Assembly (NCBI RefSeq): GCF_000378145.1
Contig: NZ_KB899283.1
Span: 124,001-188,000 of the forward strand
Reading direction: 5' to 3'
DNA: 64,000 nt
Origin: Saccharibacillus kuerlensis DSM 22868
Lineage (GTDB): Bacteria > Bacillota > Bacilli > Paenibacillales > Paenibacillaceae
Part shown: in pieces, positions 10,985 to 31,333 of the stretch
Numbering within the stretch: the stretch's first letter is position 1
Layout of the letters: every line of letters begins with the position of its first letter
Notes under the pieces: generated by a model
What the model was told of the DNA's origin: nothing
What the model saw: the letters and a program-made list of their open reading frames with translations, nothing else
Databases searched by the model: none
Program-made: the position numbers and the translations under genes

Positions 10985-13033
10985 CTACTCGGCCTTGGCG
11001 GCTTTGTTTGAAATATCTGTGATCCGCCATCTGCCGGCTTCCACTTCTTCAGGAGGCATTGGACGTCCATAATAATAGCCCTGCATAAGGGTACACCCTC
11101 GAGACAGCAGAAATTCCGCCTGCTCCACGGTCTCTACTCCTTCCGCAACCACCTCAAGATCAAGCAGACGCGCGATACCGATAATACCAACGATTAGAGC
11201 TTGTTTGGAAGTCAGGTCGCTGTTTTTGACGAAAGACTGGTCGATCTTGAGTATATCTACAGGAATCTCGTCGAGTCTTCCCAGCGATGAGTGCCCAGTA
11301 CCAAAGTCATCCAGCGATACTCCAACACCCAGATCGCGCACCCGCTGCAGCTGGGAGAGCGTAATCGCCATATTGTGCATAGCAATCGATTCGGTAATTT
11401 CAAGTTCGAGCATAGGGCCGGGCAAACCGCTTGATCGCAGCGCCTCATCTACCATATCGAACAAAGTCATACTTTCGAATACCCGGTACGACATGTTGAC
11501 GGAAATGCACACTTCAAACAATCCTTCGTCGTGCCAGCGCTTGTTCTGTCGGCATACTTCTCCAAGCATCCAGCGGGTCATCTGCACAATCAATCCCGTC
11601 TCTTCCGCAATTGGAATAAACTCGCCCGGCGAAACGACACCTTTCTTCGGATGCTGCCAGCGCAAAAGCGCCTCGAAGCCGGCTTCCTTCCCCCGTCTAG
11701 CATCCCATTTGGGCTGATACACGATAAAAAATTGGCGATGCTCGAGGGCAAGTCTAAGATCTTTCTCCAGCTCCATTTTCCGACTGAGCTGCCCGCCGAT
11801 GCCCGCATTGAAGAAGACGGTTTTGTCTTTGCCCGACGTCTTGGCTTGGTACAGTGCTGCATCCGCCGATTTTAATAATGCCGAGCGGTCGCAGCCGTGT
11901 TCGGGGAAGAGGCTGATCCCTGCGCTTGCCGTCACATACAGCTCGTTACCGTCGATCATGTAAGGCCTGCCGATCTCTTCCATCATCCGGTTTACACGTT
12001 CCAGCAGCCGAGTCGAATCATTCTCCGCGCCGACCAAAAGAAACTCGTCTCCGTCCATCCGGAACAGCGCCTCGCTTTCTTCGATTCGGGTACTGATTCG
12101 CTGCGCAGCATGCGTCAGCAGCAAGTCTCCGAGATCGCGGCCGAGTGTATCATTGATGACCTTGAAACGGTCCAGATTAATCAGCACCATCGAACCGAGA
12201 CTTTCCTCAAGCAGCCGACGATCCGATTCTTCCTGCAGCGCATAACGGTTGCGAAGTCCTGTCAGCGGATCAAGAAACGCGATTCGCTTAAGGCTTCGCC
12301 GTTCAAAAACCATAAAGGCCCACGTAATCGCCAGGATGATCGCAACAAGTGCGAAGACCCCCGCTACGAAATATGACGAAGGCAGCGCGGTGTAGCCCAG
12401 CGCTACCGCAGTTGAGCGTAAGCTGTCAACGCGCAGCGAACCCAAGACCGTATACTGCATAGCGAATATACCCGATCCCAGAATCAAGGCTGCAACAGGC
12501 TTGGAAAGTCCAAAACCGGCTGCGCGACGAAAGTTGCCGAGTACATACAAAGCGAAATAACTGGCAATAAACATGATGGCTACCGAGAAAAATCCGACAA
12601 TAGGATCAATCCCAACAACGAGCCCTGGCCGCAGCGCAAACACGCCTAGCGCAGACATTACCGTAACGCCAAAACTGAAAACACCGCTGGAAATCCGACT
12701 GGTAAAAACCTCCTGCTTACCAAACAGCCGGAACATTATGTATGCCGATAAACTGACGACCGCGATCGCGGATACAGTGGCAAGCGGCGCATAATGCAGC
12801 GTAAGGCGATGATGATAAGATCGCAGACTCATCATGTGGACCAACCAGGTACCGGTTCCCAGAATCAGAGCCGCCCCTGCCAGAGTAAGACGTCTCCTTC
12901 CCCTGCGCACCCGGATTTTCCCTGCAGCCAGACTGAGACTCAAATATGCGGAGAGCAGCGCAACCGACAGCGATAAAACAATCAATACACCGTTCCAATT
13001 CTCCGTTAAACCTGTGACAAGGACAGAGATCAT
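10985..13033 (-). CDS. membrane MHYT sensor with GGDEF and EAL domains
   Basis: 682 residues from the ATG at 13033 (AGTGGG nine bases upstream); a TTG at 13096 or an ATG at 13054 are alternatives. About seven membrane helices contain MHYT-type repeats (LVHMMSL, FAMQYTVLG) thought to bind a metal and sense a diatomic gas. A diguanylate-cyclase domain follows (DPLTGLRNR, NLDRFKVIND), but the signature reads DGDEF rather than GGDEF. The EAL phosphodiesterase domain keeps FEALLRW, EITESIA and the DDFGTGHSS metal site, plus KIDQSFV. The expected activity is hydrolysis of cyclic di-GMP, with the altered GGDEF possibly a GTP-binding regulator. It is a single-gene unit. Confidence 0.9.
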   Translation of the reverse strand: MISVLVTGLTENWNGVLIVLSLSVALLSAYLSLSLAAGKIRVRRGRRRLTLAGAALILGTGTWLVHMMSLRSYHHRLTLHYAPLATVSAIAVVSLSAYIMFRLFGKQEVFTSRISSGVFSFGVTVMSALGVFALRPGLVVGIDPIVGFFSVAIMFIASYFALYVLGNFRRAAGFGLSKPVAALILGSGIFAMQYTVLGSLRVDSLRSTAVALGYTALPSSYFVAGVFALVAIILAITWAFMVFERRSLKRIAFLDPLTGLRNRYALQEESDRRLLEESLGSMVLINLDRFKVINDTLGRDLGDLLLTHAAQRISTRIEESEALFRMDGDEFLLVGAENDSTRLLERVNRMMEEIGRPYMIDGNELYVTASAGISLFPEHGCDRSALLKSADAALYQAKTSGKDKTVFFNAGIGGQLSRKMELEKDLRLALEHRQFFIVYQPKWDARRGKEAGFEALLRWQHPKKGVVSPGEFIPIAEETGLIVQMTRWMLGEVCRQNKRWHDEGLFEVCISVNMSYRVFESMTLFDMVDEALRSSGLPGPMLELEITESIAMHNMAITLSQLQRVRDLGVGVSLDDFGTGHSSLGRLDEIPVDILKIDQSFVKNSDLTSKQALIVGIIGIARLLDLEVVAEGVETVEQAEFLLSRGCTLMQGYYYGRPMPPEEVEAGRWRITDISNKAAKAE

Positions 13034-13190
13034 AAATGGGTACCCACTTTGCATAATGATTTTTTTGAAAATGTGCCATGATCTTGCTTCAGGCAAGTAA
13101 AACCTTTTATTTAATTATATCGAATAAATAGGTAAAATCCATTAGGAAGTGGGAAAGTGGATGAAAAAAGCTTGATTTCTTTCTGAATGC

Positions 13191-25017: not shown

Positions 25018-25926
25018 TCAACTGCGGCTATCCTTAATCGGCGTCCCGCCCAACCATTCCCGGGTAAACGAAATCCATTCGCGGGCCGCATACGACTGAT
25101 AACGATCCTTGTGCCAGATGACGCCCAACCTCCACCAGATCGCCGGCTCTTCGAGCGGCACAACCGTAACAGCCTTGCCCGACGCTTGACGACAGATCGT
25201 CTCGGGCAGCAGCGCAACGCCGAGCCCGCCCGCCACCATCTCGCTGATCAGATCCCACTGCGAACTTTCATAGACAATACGCGGCTGAAAGCCGGCCTGC
25301 AGACATTCGCTGATAATTCGGTCATGCAAGGTGAAATCCTCCCGGAAAAAGACAAAGTTCTCCTGCGCCAGTTCGTTCAATCTTGCGCTTGATGCCTCTG
25401 CCAGACGGTGCGAAGCCGGGACAATCAAATTCAACCGCTCTTCCGCAAATTGAAAAGAATTGAACACATCGAATGTGAGCGGAAGCACGACCACGCCGAT
25501 ATCCAGCAGCCCTTCCGCGACATCCGATTCTACCTTTTTGGCTCCGTCTTCGAATACCTGCAGCGTCACGTCGGGATACCGATTGTGAAAGGCACCGATT
25601 ACCTTCGGAAAAAAACTCGATCCCACCATTGGCGGCAGTCCGATACGGATATGCCCCCGCTTCAGATCTGCCAGATCACCAAGCTGACCCGATAAGTTGG
25701 AGAACGATTGAGTAATCGCCTGAGCCTGCTCCATCACGACGCGGCCCGCATCGGTCAATTCGATCCGTCTACCGATCCGGTCGAACAGAGTGACTCCGAG
25801 TTCTTCTTCCAACTGCCGAATGGCCTTGCTGATCGCCGGCTGGCTCAGGTACAGAGACTCCGCCGCCCTTGTAAAACTTTTAAGTCTTGCCGTCTCCAGA
25901 AAGTACTGCAGATGCCGAATATCCAT
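25018..25926 (-). CDS. LysR-type regulator, CidR/YwbI-like
   Basis: 302 residues from MDIRHLQYF (an ATG four codons earlier is possible). The N-terminal winged HTH is typical: LKSFTRAAESLYLSQPAISKAIRQLEEELGVTLFDR. The C-terminal effector domain begins at GHIRIGLPP and carries LLDIGVVVLP and GLGVALLPE. It is divergent from the cidA-lrgB pair across 183 bp, the arrangement seen for CidR in staphylococci and YwbI in Bacillus, where acetate or overflow metabolism signals induce the holin-like genes. This context is the main reason for the CidR comparison. Confidence 0.88.
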   Translation of the reverse strand: MDIRHLQYFLETARLKSFTRAAESLYLSQPAISKAIRQLEEELGVTLFDRIGRRIELTDAGRVVMEQAQAITQSFSNLSGQLGDLADLKRGHIRIGLPPMVGSSFFPKVIGAFHNRYPDVTLQVFEDGAKKVESDVAEGLLDIGVVVLPLTFDVFNSFQFAEERLNLIVPASHRLAEASSARLNELAQENFVFFREDFTLHDRIISECLQAGFQPRIVYESSQWDLISEMVAGGLGVALLPETICRQASGKAVTVVPLEEPAIWWRLGVIWHKDRYQSYAAREWISFTREWLGGTPIKDSRS

Positions 25927-26109
25927 ACTCCGAATCATCCTCTCCCTATCAGATCATAGAATTTAATCCATAACCATCAGGAATGCTTTTCATTCTTTTT
26001 ATTCATTTTACTCATGAAAGAAAGAGATGTAAAATTTCAGTATGGAAAATAAATGACAGAACTTTTTTATATATTTTTCAAAATTAATCCGGTAAAGGAG
26101 CATTCGCCC

Positions 26110-26478
26110 ATGAAAAAAGCGCTGCTGGCTGCGATTCAGGTTGCAATTCTAATGGGCTTCTCCGAACTGGTCAACGTCCTTGCAGCCTGGATGCACCTTC
26201 CGCTGCCCGGCAGTATTGTCGGCATCCTCGTTCTTTTCCTTCTATTGCAGTTCCGTGTCGTCAAACTGGAATGGATTGAACTAGGTGCAACCTGGCTGCT
26301 GGCCGAACTTCTGCTGTTTTTTATTCCGGCTGCCGTCGGCGTAATGAACTATATTCCGCTTCTTGAACAGGACGGGCTTCGCATTTTTGCTGTCGTGCTG
26401 CTCAGTACGCTGCTCGTCATGACCAGCTCGGGCCTATTGGCCAGAACTTTATCCCGAAGAAAGGAGAGCCGCACATGA
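26110..26478 (+). CDS. cidA: CidA/LrgA-family holin-like membrane protein
   Basis: 122 residues with four hydrophobic helices. The conserved PLPGSIVGILVLFLLL and FFIPAAVGVMNY are family signatures. The ATG is chosen for its AAAGGAG nine bases upstream; the frame opens earlier at 26053 with no ribosome site. CidA/LrgA proteins form holin-like or transport complexes with LrgB/CidB and influence murein hydrolase activity, programmed death and pyruvate uptake. The stop overlaps the next start by four bases (ATGA), so the two are translated together. Confidence 0.92.
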   Translation: MKKALLAAIQVAILMGFSELVNVLAAWMHLPLPGSIVGILVLFLLLQFRVVKLEWIELGATWLLAELLLFFIPAAVGVMNYIPLLEQDGLRIFAVVLLSTLLVMTSSGLLARTLSRRKESRT

Positions 26479-27161
26479 TGATCGAACAAGCCGTTACGTA
26501 TCTTACTGCTACTCTTCTTATTTATTATGCGGCCAAGTGGTTGTATCGCAAGTATCCCAAAGTCTATCTGTCTCCACTGCTCATCACACCGGCTGTTCTG
26601 GTTGTCGTGCTCCTTGCTACCCATGCTTCTTATTCGGACTACAATGCAGGGGGAGAATGGCTCTCCAAGCTGCTGCAGCCGGCTACAGTCGCTTTCGCCG
26701 TTCCGCTGTACAAAAATCTGCAGACACTCAAAAAGCATGCAGGTGAAATTATTGCCAGCGTTTTGTTCGGATCGCTCACGGCGATTCTGTCATCCGCTGT
26801 CCTCGCTCGCCTCATGCATCTGGACAGCGAACTGGCCAGCAGTCTCGTTCCCCGTTCGGTCACAACGCCGATCGCGATGAACGTCTCTCAAATGATCGGA
26901 GGCGTACCGACGATTACAGCCGTGTTTGTGATCATAACAGGCCTGCTTGGCGCTATGATCGGTCCTTCCGTCGTCAAACTTCTGCGAATCGAAGGGGATA
27001 TTGCCAAGGGCGTTTTGTTTGGAACAAGCGCCCATGGTACAGGTACTTCGAAGGCTTTCGAGTTGAATCCCCTCACCGGCACAATCTCCAGCATTTCAAT
27101 GATTTTGGCGGCATTATTCACTCTGCTGGCTGCGCCGGCACTGCTGAGCCTGCTCGGCTGA
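26475..27161 (+). CDS. cidB: LrgB/CidB-family membrane protein
   Basis: 228 residues with seven or eight hydrophobic segments. Family features include KNLQTLKKH, PRSVTTPIAMNVSQMIGG and GTSAHGTGTSKAFE. It partners CidA/LrgA in holin/antiholin-like function and in pyruvate transport in several Bacillota. Its start overlaps the cidA stop. A strong bidirectional terminator follows. Whether this pair acts as Cid or Lrg cannot be decided by sequence; the LysR neighbour favours Cid. Confidence 0.92.
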   Translation: MMIEQAVTYLTATLLIYYAAKWLYRKYPKVYLSPLLITPAVLVVVLLATHASYSDYNAGGEWLSKLLQPATVAFAVPLYKNLQTLKKHAGEIIASVLFGSLTAILSSAVLARLMHLDSELASSLVPRSVTTPIAMNVSQMIGGVPTITAVFVIITGLLGAMIGPSVVKLLRIEGDIAKGVLFGTSAHGTGTSKAFELNPLTGTISSISMILAALFTLLAAPALLSLLG

Positions 27162-27199: not shown

Positions 27200-27238
27200 A
27201 AAAAACCCGTTCTCCGGTGTCGGAAAACGGGTTTTTTA
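27200..27238. terminator. bidirectional terminator
   Basis: AAAAAACCCGTTCTCCG pairs with CGGAAAACGGGTTTTTT (one mismatch). It ends cidB on the plus strand and the LuxR-type gene on the minus strand. Confidence 0.9.
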
Positions 27239-27283: not shown

Positions 27284-29473
27284 TTAACCGATTCCTCGGT
27301 TGAACACTCTGGCAATAGCCTGTGCCCGGTCGCTTACGCTCATTTTATTGAAAATGTTGGTTAAGTGATTTTTCACCGTATGTTCGCTGATAAACAGTTT
27401 GGCGGCAATATCCTTGTTGCTTGAAGCGCGTACTACCAGCTCCAGCACATCTTTTTCCCGCTTGGACAGTCCGAATTCTTTGACAATTGCGTCAATTCCC
27501 CGTTCTTCCGCTTCTGCAGGATTGAAAGCGGCCGGTGTGCCGTCAGAAAGCATAACTTCACTCTGCACCGTATGACGAACTGCCATAAACTTACGGAAAT
27601 GATTAAACAATTCCGGAGAAACTCCAGTCAGATGAAGGCGGCCTGCCGTCTCTTCATCCAATTCGGCAAAGTACAGCACAGTTCGAAGCAGCTGAGCTGG
27701 ACGGGAATAGGAAAAACTTCCTGTTCGCCCTTCCGATTCCAACATCAATTGATGTTCATTGAGAATTTCCAATTCGTTGGCGAAAGAGTCGCTCAGTTCG
27801 CTTCGCGCCGCATCGTCCAACACGGACAACATGTTTGCCCGCTGCAGCAAAGAAGCTTCCTCTGCCGTAATCCCGCCATACCTCGCATATTCGTCCAGCA
27901 AACGCAGCGACAGATCGGCTTTCTTGCCCTGATCGTCTTCCCTCTGCTTGGCCGAGGCATACATCAATCGGAGGAAACGTTCATTTTGCAGCCCCAGCTG
28001 CCGCTGATCGTGTACCGACTGTAAAATGATACTTCCCATCGTCGCCAGCGCCAGCAGAACTTCCCGGCATTCTTCGGCCTCCTGTTCGCTGCTGAGCGAT
28101 ACGGCCAGTACGCCACGGGTTTTCCCGGCATAAACGATTGGATACTCCATCATCAGCTGGCCTTCCTCGGTCTGCGATAGTTCAAACCCCGGCGAATTCA
28201 CACTGGAATTTTCATGCAGAACGCGTTTGGCCACCTCGCGCGCATACTGTTCCGCCAAATCGTTGGCAATGCCCCGGGACACGATTTGTACCTTTTGCCC
28301 ACTTGAACTTTCATGCACAATTATTGCCGAGGAAGGATTCCAGACCAGACTGAGACTCATATCGACCAGCATAAACATAATCCGCTGAATGTTCTGAGCC
28401 GAAATCATGAATCGAGTCACTTCCATGAGCGGACGAAGACGTTGGATTTGGCGTTCCATCCGAGCTTCTATAGTGCCGCTCGCGATATACTCACCGACAA
28501 GCGCGATCAAGACTTCTTCAAATTCCCGCATCAGGGAATCCGCTTGAACCTTTTTCTTGGAAACGATGAAGAGAATCCCTAACTTCTCCATGCCTACACG
28601 AACAGGGAAACAGCGCAGTCCGTAAAATTCGGAGACTCCATGCTGTTTGAAGAAGGAGGCTCTGGGATCCCGTTGAATATCGGTCCACTGCATCGGAGTA
28701 TCGCTTAAAGCAGCCTGCCCCAAGAAACCTTCGCCTTCCCGAAATTCAGCATCTTGAAGCAGGGAAGCTCCTTCGCCAGCAAGGCGGCTGATCTGGTATT
28801 CGCCCGGTCCGATCTTCTCGGCATAGCCCATAACGTCCGTTCCCCCGCTGACGCTGAGGAACTGTTCAAATGCCTGATCGACAGTTCCTCTGTCTCTGCG
28901 AGTGGTCGACATGACATCGCGCAGCTCCGCCAGCCGTTCGCGCACATAGGCTTCACGGTATGCCGAACGCAGAACACGTTCGGAAGTCTCGGCCAGCTTG
29001 CCGATCTTTTCTCTCCAGATCTCCGCTTCTTCGCCAGACAGTTCTTCCGCCTCCAGCACAAGATCAAGCAGAAGCTTATGTCCTTCATTGTACAAACCGG
29101 CTCCGGCCACTTCTTCTTCCAGCATCTGCTTCGTACCTGATTGAATCAGTACGCCGGCCAGTACATAATATACCGCATCTCCGTCAGGAGACTTGAATGG
29201 AGCAATAATAAACTTAACACCCGGAAGCCAGAGATCACACAAAGCGGGCCTCGTTAGTCCTGCATAATGACGGACTTCCTGCCAGAAGCGATCACGCGTT
29301 TCTCCGTCCGCATCGGTCAGCTTTTTGAAGAAGGGATGGTGAGAAGAAGGCTTGACGAGCGGCCGGCCGTGACCGTCCACGATCAGGATGGAAAGGCGCG
29401 TAAACTCCGCATAAGTTTGTTGAATTTCTTCGACGGTTTTCTTAACGTCCATTATCCAGCTTTTCTCAATCAT
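27284..29473 (-). CDS. PocR/GAF sensor with LuxR-type HTH
   Basis: 729 residues from the ATG at 29473 (GGAG ten bases upstream, four bases past the stop of the preceding small gene). Residues about 10-170 resemble the PocR ligand-binding domain (LSILIVDGHGRPLVKPSSHHPF, CDLWLPGVKFIIAPF), which holds small-molecule or haem-like ligands. A GAF domain follows (EGEGFLGQAALSDTP, GLRCFPVRVGMEKLGILFIVSKK), then a second GAF-like region and a helical part. The last 65 residues are a LuxR HTH: LSKREKDVLELVVRASSNKDIAAKLFISEHTVKNHL. There is no receiver or kinase domain, so it should sense directly and bind DNA. It ends the KaiC-like operon. Confidence 0.85.
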   Translation of the reverse strand: MIEKSWIMDVKKTVEEIQQTYAEFTRLSILIVDGHGRPLVKPSSHHPFFKKLTDADGETRDRFWQEVRHYAGLTRPALCDLWLPGVKFIIAPFKSPDGDAVYYVLAGVLIQSGTKQMLEEEVAGAGLYNEGHKLLLDLVLEAEELSGEEAEIWREKIGKLAETSERVLRSAYREAYVRERLAELRDVMSTTRRDRGTVDQAFEQFLSVSGGTDVMGYAEKIGPGEYQISRLAGEGASLLQDAEFREGEGFLGQAALSDTPMQWTDIQRDPRASFFKQHGVSEFYGLRCFPVRVGMEKLGILFIVSKKKVQADSLMREFEEVLIALVGEYIASGTIEARMERQIQRLRPLMEVTRFMISAQNIQRIMFMLVDMSLSLVWNPSSAIIVHESSSGQKVQIVSRGIANDLAEQYAREVAKRVLHENSSVNSPGFELSQTEEGQLMMEYPIVYAGKTRGVLAVSLSSEQEAEECREVLLALATMGSIILQSVHDQRQLGLQNERFLRLMYASAKQREDDQGKKADLSLRLLDEYARYGGITAEEASLLQRANMLSVLDDAARSELSDSFANELEILNEHQLMLESEGRTGSFSYSRPAQLLRTVLYFAELDEETAGRLHLTGVSPELFNHFRKFMAVRHTVQSEVMLSDGTPAAFNPAEAEERGIDAIVKEFGLSKREKDVLELVVRASSNKDIAAKLFISEHTVKNHLTNIFNKMSVSDRAQAIARVFNRGIG

Positions 29474-29474
29474 A

Positions 29475-29720
29475 TTAATGGATCTCCACTTCGCTTTGAG
29501 TATAAGGGGTTTTGTACGAATAAATAGCCATGTTCCCTTCACCTCTTTTATCCAGGATGGAGATTGCGGCCAAGCGGTTCAGTACAATTTCCAACGGCTC
29601 GATTCCGCGTCCAAGCTTCTTGGCGAGTCCTTTTGCGGTTTCATAGGCGTAAGGGTTGTTTTCAAAAAACACCGTGCACTCCATCTGCAGCTTCAACAAC
29701 TCCTGATCCGAAATCGTCAT
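29475..29720 (-). CDS. small winged-helix protein of the KaiC-like operon
   Basis: 81 residues. A helix (ISDQELLKLQMECTVFFE) is followed by a winged-helix pattern: GLAKKLGRGIEPLEIVLNRL as HTH and ISILDKRGEGNMAIYSYK as the wing. GGGGG overlapping the stop of the KaiC-like gene lies 12 bases upstream, and its stop is followed two bases later by the ATG of the sensor gene, so all three are translated as a unit. It may bind DNA or serve as an adaptor between the ATPase and the sensor. I know no named family for it. Confidence 0.75.
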   Translation of the reverse strand: MTISDQELLKLQMECTVFFENNPYAYETAKGLAKKLGRGIEPLEIVLNRLAAISILDKRGEGNMAIYSYKTPYTQSEVEIH

Positions 29721-29736
29721 CTTTCTCGTGTGCCCC

Positions 29737-31182
29737 CTATATCAGCCTAACATACGGTCTGTCCCTGATATTCTCGACGATATGGGGAGCCGACATGCGG
29801 CCGCCCGGGGATTTCGTAATCTGGAGATACTGATAGCTTCCATCCACCCAAGTACGAATCACTCCGTTGGAAGCCCGTTCGAGGAAGGAAGACGTCTCCA
29901 GTCCGATTTCCGTAAAGTTGCTCTGACAGAGCACCGTAACGCCCGCAGCCCTGCACCGGGCCATCTCGTCGGCAAAATGACGCTTAACATACTCCCGCCC
30001 GCGTTCCGAGAGCACCGTATTCAGGTCGTAATGAATAAACCAGCGCCTGCCCTCAACGACACTCTCGCGGAAATACGGATTAATTGCTTCGTACACTTTC
30101 TTCTGATATTCCCCATTCGAAAGCCGGTCAACATAAATAACCGATTTCTCGTATTCGGGAGCAACTTGACGATGATAATGGTCGATAAAGAACACTCGTT
30201 CTTCAAGAGCGGCTTCACGGAGCGAAGCGCCGAACAGTTCCAGCGACTGCTCCAACGTCTCCACAGAACTGAGACCCGACAGCATAAATACGACGCAGTC
30301 TCCCTCCTTGATCCTTTCCGCATAGATCGAAGTCATCAAGTATTTGTAATTGGCTTTACTGTTGCTATCCAGCATAAACGCACTTCCTTGCGGAAGCCCG
30401 CCAAAAAGCAGGTCGTCCAGCGACTGAATTCCTGTACTCAGACGGGCAACGCCGTCGCTCACGATCTTGTCTTCGACCATGGACAGAGCCGGTAGAATAC
30501 ATATCCCGTCACTCAGGAAGCGGTAATGGTGCTCGCCTTCCACAATACAGGTTCCGCGCATCTTAAGAATCTCGATCGTACGCTTGCGAAACCTCTCCAT
30601 ATGTTCGCGCAGCGACAGACGAATAATGCCGTCGCATACGTAATTCTCAAAAGGCGTCGAACGTCCTTCCCACTCTCCGTATTCCCTAAGGAAAAATGCG
30701 GTGAGATTGAACTTGCGCATAATATTGCGAACCGAATAAATCTGTTCGCGTCCGTCGGTTTGAAGTCCTCCCAGCGTACGGAACAAACTGATACTGTCGA
30801 TTACAACGCGCTTGCAGTCGATTTCCCGAATCAACTGCTCGAACAATCCATCGGTCCGCATCATTTGATCGAGCAGTACATCCGGCTCCAGGCAGATGAT
30901 CCGCAGCTTATTCTGCCGTTCGAGTTCACGCAGATCCCATCCAAAGCCGGACATATCCCGGTAAATTTGTTCCGGAAGTTCTTCAAAAGTTATATAAATT
31001 CCCGATTCTCCGTATTGCCTGGCTCCTTCGAGCAGAAACTGAATGCCCAAAGTCGTTTTGCCGGTACCCGGATTTCCCTCAAGTATAATCGTTGTGCCGC
31101 GAGGGACTCCTCCGCCAAGCAGCTCGTCGAGCCCCGGAACCCCAGTGTGTACGATATCTTGACCCAACCTCGTTTCTTGCAT
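29737..31182 (-). CDS. two-domain KaiC/RadA-like ATPase, second domain without P-loop
   Basis: 481 residues. Domain 1 (1-230) begins TGVPGLDELLGGGVPRG, the KaiC signature, with Walker A GNPGTGKTT at 36-44, the paired catalytic glutamates Glu67-Glu68 (ITFEELPEQ) and Walker B RVVIDSISLF. Domain 2 starts again with STGIQSLDDLLFGGLPQG at about 250, but the P-loop is replaced by DSNSKANYKY, so it should not bind ATP normally. KaiC-family ATPases act as hexameric timers or signal switches. There are no KaiA or KaiB genes here; the downstream winged-helix and PocR/GAF/LuxR genes are the likely outputs. A sigma-B-like promoter precedes it. Confidence 0.88.
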   Translation of the reverse strand: MQETRLGQDIVHTGVPGLDELLGGGVPRGTTIILEGNPGTGKTTLGIQFLLEGARQYGESGIYITFEELPEQIYRDMSGFGWDLRELERQNKLRIICLEPDVLLDQMMRTDGLFEQLIREIDCKRVVIDSISLFRTLGGLQTDGREQIYSVRNIMRKFNLTAFFLREYGEWEGRSTPFENYVCDGIIRLSLREHMERFRKRTIEILKMRGTCIVEGEHHYRFLSDGICILPALSMVEDKIVSDGVARLSTGIQSLDDLLFGGLPQGSAFMLDSNSKANYKYLMTSIYAERIKEGDCVVFMLSGLSSVETLEQSLELFGASLREAALEERVFFIDHYHRQVAPEYEKSVIYVDRLSNGEYQKKVYEAINPYFRESVVEGRRWFIHYDLNTVLSERGREYVKRHFADEMARCRAAGVTVLCQSNFTEIGLETSSFLERASNGVIRTWVDGSYQYLQITKSPGGRMSAPHIVENIRDRPYVRLI

Positions 31183-31240: not shown

Positions 31241-31256
31241 AGAATAGGAATATTCT
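31241..31256. promoter_or_regulatory. palindrome at predicted start of KaiC operon transcript
   Basis: AGAATA and TATTCT flank GGAA in a perfect 6-4-6 palindrome. It is about 5-20 bases past the -10 of the predicted promoter, where a repressor could act. Confidence 0.45.
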
Positions 31257-31268
31257 CTTATATTGATC

Positions 31269-31294
31269 TTACCCGATAACTCTAGAGTTTGAAA
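31269..31294 (-). promoter_or_regulatory. sigma-B-like promoter of KaiC-like operon
   Basis: On the minus strand TTTCAA (31289-31294), 14 bp, GGGTAA (31269-31274). This is 4 of 6 and 5 of 6 against the sigma-B elements GTTTAA and GGGTAT with an allowed spacer, giving a leader of about 78 bases. Confidence 0.45.
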
Positions 31295-31333
31295 TAGCTT
31301 TTCCATTTTTTCCATAGCGTTGTCATATCTGAT

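Follow-up and report, generated by a model that had tools for sequence, protein, structure and literature searches.

A KaiC-like ATPase encoded with a winged-helix protein and a PocR/GAF/LuxR sensor-regulator in Saccharibacillus kuerlensis and its relatives: a probable switch for surface attachment

Three genes and their products

The stretch of DNA studied here (the window) comprises 64,000 nucleotides of the 4.7 Mb genome of Saccharibacillus kuerlensis DSM 22868, namely positions 124001-188000 of contig C7, and carries on its reverse strand three closely spaced genes that we call K, W and S. K (29737-31182) encodes a two-domain KaiC-like ATPase of 481 residues, W (29475-29720) a winged-helix protein of 81 residues, and S (27284-29473) a sensor-regulator of 729 residues, delimited by domain profiles and start conservation, in which PocR-like, GAF and LuxR regions are combined with what may be a decayed HD domain. 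In the list of open reading frames S begins at GTG 29542 and overlaps W, but an ATG at 29473 with GGAG upstream of it is kept in close relatives, and we therefore place the start of S there. Sixteen bases separate K from W and a single base separates W from S, in keeping with the tightly packed operon described in an earlier reading of this DNA (the initial annotation), which had suggested a timing or stress-signalling system.

K is recognised by Pfam KaiC (206 bits) and scores 128.6 bits with NCBIfam circ_KaiC, for which the cut-off is 546. Its predicted structure aligns over its full length with KaiC structures and has the KaiC fold in both domains (Foldseek E 3.4e-34), with a template-modelling (TM) score of merely 0.42 and an uncertain relative placement of the two domains (predicted TM score, pTM, 0.52). 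Across 56 aligned K proteins, the P-loop of domain 1 (GNPGTGKTT at 31051-31077, reverse strand) is always of the form GxPGTGKT, E67 is present in 56 and E68 in 55, and K207 and R209, which align with the K-x-R of a KaiC domain, occur in every protein. With a Walker A motif, a glutamate pair and K-x-R, the features expected of KaiC-like ATPases of the RecA superfamily, domain 1 looks catalytically competent. In domain 2 the P-loop is replaced in 56/56 proteins by D-[TS]-N-S-K-A-N (D-S-N-S-K-A-N at 30349-30369 of the window, reverse strand), in which D272, N274, S275 and N278 are invariant, K276 is found in 55 and A277 in 54. That this motif is so constant argues against mere decay; the C-terminal stretch T-W-V-D-G-x-Y-Q varies only a little more. 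Domain 2 also lacks the K-x-R finger when aligned with relatives that keep it. Judged from these alignments, domain 2 is a pseudo-ATPase with an invariant motif of its own and a lost nucleotide site, and K does not have the two active ATPase domains that characterise the circadian KaiC. The division of labour proposed initially, with an intact P-loop and Glu-Glu in domain 1 and a lost P-loop in domain 2, is thus seen throughout the alignment.

W has no family match in Pfam or NCBIfam and no meaningful sequence match in the PDB. Its AlphaFold2 model is a winged helix (predicted local distance difference test score, pLDDT, 88), as had been proposed; the nearest solved folds in the PDB are winged helix-turn-helix (HTH) structures of the Zalpha and ArsR types (best Foldseek E 1.7e-3), and none matches at E ≤ 0.001. 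W is a putative DNA-binding protein. A second, diverged copy of W lies downstream of S in four loci (L096:3793-4017, L131:9216-9467, L135:9490-9729 and L161:9242-9505).

The assignment of S as a PocR/GAF/LuxR sensor also holds, with evidence that varies along the protein. The C-terminal HTH (residues 669-721; 27311-27469, reverse strand) is of the LuxR/GerE type at 67.9 bits, and such an HTH is found in 17/17 S proteins scanned. The GAF domain (residues 200-326; 28496-28876, reverse strand) is just above threshold (GAF_2, 28.8 bits; cut-off 28.6). The PocR-like stretch (residues 12-62; 29288-29440, reverse strand) reaches E 1.8e-4 and 21.8 bits, below the cut-off of 23.9, and a PocR match at E ≤ 0.5 is found in 14 of the 17 S proteins, the best at 7e-13. 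Residues 490-662 (27488-28006, reverse strand) resemble HD proteins in a comparison of profiles: hhalign gives a score of 25.1 over 164 columns with a probability of 31%, whereas none of 40 column shuffles exceeds 4.4 and the reversed profile gives 3.6. This region has no Pfam match, and neither the HDxGK nor the GYP residues that would mark an HD-GYP phosphodiesterase were found in the window's stretch. The profile similarity is suggestive of a remote, decayed HD (HD-GYP-like) domain, which is made likelier by two relatives in which an HD_5 domain lies between GAF and LuxR (E 1.7e-37 in L176; E 1.6e-10, partial, in L177). S-like proteins of about 20-30% identity occur in many genomes of another genus (g13), nearly all without a K match.

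Conservation of the K-W-S module

We followed the three genes through nested and separate samples of genomes: 16 of the genus, in which Saccharibacillus species are taken together with the Paenibacillus dauci/wulumuqiensis/nuruki group; 295 of the family, which include those 16; a second sample of 296 from the order; and 398 from the phylum. K is present in 16/16 genus genomes and in 22 of the 295 family genomes; of the same 295, 23 carry W and 51 encode S-like proteins. In all 22 K-positive family genomes (the window and 21 further loci) the genes stand in the order K-W-S. Among the 296 order genomes W occurs in 33 and the full trio in 31 of these; for the remaining two (L108 and L110), the stretch fetched contains W and S and no K. 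A scan of GTDB with K domain 2 as query (one genome per species, 84,980 species), made with two peptide patterns and so missing more divergent copies of K, returned 52 loci, and the order is K-W-S in 52/52. These come from Saccharibacillus, Paenibacillus, Cohnella, Brevibacillus, Robertmurraya, Halalkalibacter, Oceanobacillus, Cytobacillus and others; one (L148) has frameshifts in several of its genes, and another (L127) is truncated by the end of its contig. The former, from Paenibacillus sp. CC-CFT747 and also sampled as L109, has K, W and S split over several frames, probably through sequencing error. Adjacency of the three genes in relatives had been set beforehand as the test of the initial annotation, and the 22/22 and 52/52 counts bear it out. 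The flanking genes vary among lineages, which identifies the trio as the unit, and K-W-S is a real module. Mirror-tree correlations (K-W 0.80, K-S 0.92, W-S 0.75) were computed without a control, and we rest no claim on them.

Further afield, W is found in 22/398 phylum genomes, and 16 stretches were fetched for the 20 W matches outside the genus. Thirteen of these hold a K-type ATPase (on the opposite strand in L188) and three (L176, L184 and L189) hold none; L177 has the complete trio. Both K domains keep the P-loop in six more distant Bacillota (L178, L179, L180, L182, L186 and L187), and in 6/6 of these a second KaiC-like match and W lie near; the domain 2 site is altered in L177 and L188. 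Clusters of a KaiC gene, a second KaiC-like match and W were seen in other Bacillota at L178-L183 and L185-L187, with V4R and PAS-histidine-kinase genes also present at L178. A 2022 review describes Bacillus (B. subtilis) as totally without kaiC (PMC8874327).

Neighbouring genes and upstream elements

The genes around the 52 loci were scanned with query proteins taken from the loci themselves and from L096 and L176, over 184,296 bases downstream of S and 259,772 bases upstream. Genes similar to GGDEF, EAL, HD, BslA, prepilin peptidase-TadE or FapA are found downstream in 41/52 loci and upstream in 4/52, despite the larger number of upstream bases. The kinds overlap: GGDEF in 14 downstream loci, EAL in 15, HD in 8, BslA in 8, Tad in 8 and FapA in 3. 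Pfam gave a similar picture for 87 downstream proteins, which cover part of the frames (EAL 14, GGDEF 13, BslA 8, prepilin peptidase 8, HD 6 and FapA 3), and for 98 upstream proteins none of these surface or cyclic di-GMP (c-di-GMP) families appears among the 25 of 94 Pfam families listed. Within the genus, a BslA-domain match is found in 11/16 genomes, once in each, and in 11/11 it follows S at a distance of no more than about 0.5 kb; the open frames containing these matches are 2,020-3,940 codons long. The five genomes with no BslA match are that of the window, G001, G005 and G010, with lysR-cidAB at the site, and G015 (the source of L120), with an MHYT-GGDEF-EAL gene there. MHYT-GGDEF-EAL genes stand directly behind S in L120 and L123.

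Upstream of K, an alignment of ten Saccharibacillus regions reveals a conserved block (31243-31315, reverse strand) that comprises TGGAAAA, ATTTCAAAC and a GGGTAA-like box. ATTTCAAAC is invariant, and the box reads GGGTAA in 9/10 regions and otherwise as a GGTTAA or GGGTAG variant. As to the sigma-B-like promoter of the initial annotation, these two elements are conserved and the -35 part is a poor match to the sigma-B consensus. A palindrome noted initially, AACTCTAGAGTT, is present at 31278-31289 and is not conserved in the other nine regions; with two window matches at ≤2 mismatches where 1.56 are expected, it is probably there by chance, and we have rejected it as an operator. A search for a promoter element common to K and BslA in Saccharibacillus gave only unconvincing, A-rich matches of ≤11 bases, and expectation-maximisation motif discovery over 47 upstream regions returned mostly ribosome-binding sites.

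A different element is shared by the eight Tad-type loci (four from Oceanobacillus, three from Cytobacillus and one from Bacillus sp. FJAT-44742). In all eight, the 17-base GGRAYRGYRGGGGATAY occurs at ≤2 mismatches once before K (0 mismatches in seven loci, 2 in one) and once more in the interval from S to the Tad-side genes (0 mismatches in five, 1 in two, 2 in one). Any further match within these loci differs from the pattern at 3 positions, and each locus, once shuffled, yields 0.2-1.0 matches at ≤3 mismatches. Single copies were seen behind S in L131 (2 mismatches) and L143 (3), and elsewhere in L124 (2). GGRAYRGYRGGGGATAY could serve as an operator or as a specialised promoter; either would imply joint control of K and the Tad side.

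In the window itself, the site held by the giant BslA-domain gene in other genomes of the genus is occupied by lysR-cidA-cidB-like genes (25018-27161), named by eye and consistent with LrgB and LysR matches in Pfam among the downstream proteins; the same arrangement occurs in L030, L032 and L034. An inverted repeat with runs of A and T, read in the sequence at 27200-27238 between S and the convergent cidB-like gene, is likely a terminator common to both. The host genome has 34 GGDEF matches above cut-off, from which we conclude that c-di-GMP signalling is ample; one of them (C7:135825-136280) belongs to a membrane protein encoded at 10985-13096 of the window (reverse strand), with an MHYT-like start by eye. 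Genes seen by eye that we presume to encode DegS-like sensor kinases adjoin the module in L158 and L161, together with a LuxR-type regulator gene in L161.

A probable switch for settling, and its alternatives

Many Bacillus- and Paenibacillus-type bacteria keep K-W-S as a unit, and its neighbours are often linked with attachment or biofilm, which leads us to read it, with a probability of roughly 0.6, as an ATPase-gated transcription switch that sets a surface-attachment programme (biofilm, pilus, adhesin, c-di-GMP). The PocR and GAF domains of S, perhaps together with the decayed HD domain, would sense a small molecule. K would assemble into a KaiC-like ring in which domain 1 hydrolyses ATP and the pseudo-ATPase domain 2 provides a docking or ligand-sensing ring, and its ATP state would hold or release W and/or S, which would then act on the promoter of their own operon and on the neighbouring surface or c-di-GMP genes. 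What the sequences and models show is the order of the genes, their conservation, the catalytic residues, the predicted folds of K and W, the enrichment of neighbours and the upstream element common to the Tad-type loci. We infer ring formation, ATP turnover, the binding of K to W or S, DNA binding, the ligand and the direction of the effect, and likewise the direct gating of W and S by the ATPase that the initial annotation had envisaged.

Several points weigh against this reading. All of the functional evidence comes from gene neighbourhood and sequence. The 52 loci are related, so that in our judgement the 41 positive ones amount to some eight to ten lineages, and the neighbour-scan queries were drawn from the same loci. 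In eleven of the 52 the stretch covered downstream contains no gene of these kinds: L112, L115 and L117, all three with the cidAB arrangement of the window, and L127, L144, L149, L150, L156, L157, L158 and L160, a related gene lying upstream in L149, L156, L157 and L158. The GGRAYRGYRGGGGATAY pattern was written after viewing the eight loci in which it was later counted, and the pair was not found in 13 other loci scanned. Finally, the window genome has no BslA match yet keeps K-W-S; its adjacent BslA gene has probably been lost, and the module must there have another target or a vestigial one.

The persistence of the module where the BslA gene is absent would also suit a general stress or starvation regulator, in which K would respond to the level of ATP and S to a metabolite, with many targets and the surface genes as mere passengers. 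The conserved GGGTAA-like box resembles sigma-B promoters, and at L166 a SigB-family protein (203 bits, below the cut-off of 315) is encoded next to genes that look by eye like rsbW and rsbV. Passenger genes sit poorly, however, with an enrichment as one-sided as 41/52 downstream against 4/52 upstream, with the position of 11/11 BslA genes beside S and with the sharing of GGRAYRGYRGGGGATAY within the Tad loci, and we regard such a regulator as possible, if doubtful. The stress-signalling half of the initial interpretation thus retains a minor share of the probability, and the neighbours point rather to surface attachment, biofilm and c-di-GMP. Its timing half fares worse. A KaiC-type timer (an oscillator or an hourglass) whose output runs through W and S would draw on the KaiC fold of both K domains and the conserved catalytic residues of domain 1, but domain 2 has neither a P-loop (56/56) nor a K-x-R finger, nothing points to a clock, and no KaiB was found above cut-off in 16/16 genus genomes, all of which have weak matches below it; the initial statement that Kai partners are absent agrees with this, and we consider a timer extremely improbable. 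The Tad-type genes downstream in 8/52 loci raise another idea, that K works post-translationally, as a partner to a membrane or pilus machine, and that W and S regulate the operon only. A precedent would be ArlH of the archaellum, described as a KaiC homologue (PMC13286277). Against it, a Tad-type gene is missing from the stretch covered in 44/52 loci, yet W and S are present in 52/52, and this arrangement seems to us quite unlikely.

A more specific form of the attachment switch, which we offer as an unlikely speculation, is that the former ATP site of K domain 2 has been converted into a receptor for a different nucleotide, the most plausible candidate being the c-di-GMP that the neighbouring GGDEF, EAL and HD proteins make or degrade. 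K would then be a switch with two inputs, ATP at ring 1 and a second messenger at ring 2, and would pass W and S on to the promoters of adhesin, Tad pilus and c-di-GMP genes. FleQ, an AAA+ protein gated by c-di-GMP, regulates flagella and biofilm, and the putative reuse of an ATPase site to read c-di-GMP is what K would have in common with it; FleQ differs in belonging to another ATPase family and in being a single protein with its own DNA-binding domain. If true, a two-input K would amount to KaiC-based, FleQ-like control of settling in Bacillales.

KaiC is best known from clocks. K resembles the cyanobacterial clock protein in its two RecA-like domains of KaiC fold and in the P-loop, Glu-Glu and K-x-R of domain 1, and differs from it in the apparent pseudo-ATPase domain 2 with another invariant motif, in the lack of a KaiB match above cut-off and in being encoded with two putative DNA-binding proteins. 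Archaeal KaiC-like ATPases were reportedly proposed as signalling hubs by Makarova and colleagues in 2017, and KaiC-like proteins of Pseudomonas are said by Terrettaz and colleagues to be linked with stress resistance and biofilm. The biofilm link of the latter is a likeness to K-W-S. Among the titles and abstract openings listed from the open-access literature searched, none describes the K-W-S module, and the 2017 work or others may mention these bacterial proteins. A parallel is known from Haloferax, where the KaiC homologue CirA and the winged-helix protein CsmR are described as both affecting motility and sharing transcriptional targets (PMC13286277), so that there too a KaiC-like protein is tied to a small winged-helix regulator. 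K-W-S differs from this pair in being bacterial, in its fixed three-gene operon with a PocR/GAF/LuxR sensor, in its decayed second domain and in its surface and c-di-GMP neighbours. Many Bacillales carry a KaiC-type module whose winged-helix and sensor partners are fixed, and K and W lie close together in further Bacillota. The module is probably a switch for settling, so far unstudied, rather than a clock, and offers a compact three-gene system, with testable targets, for how non-clock KaiC proteins signal.

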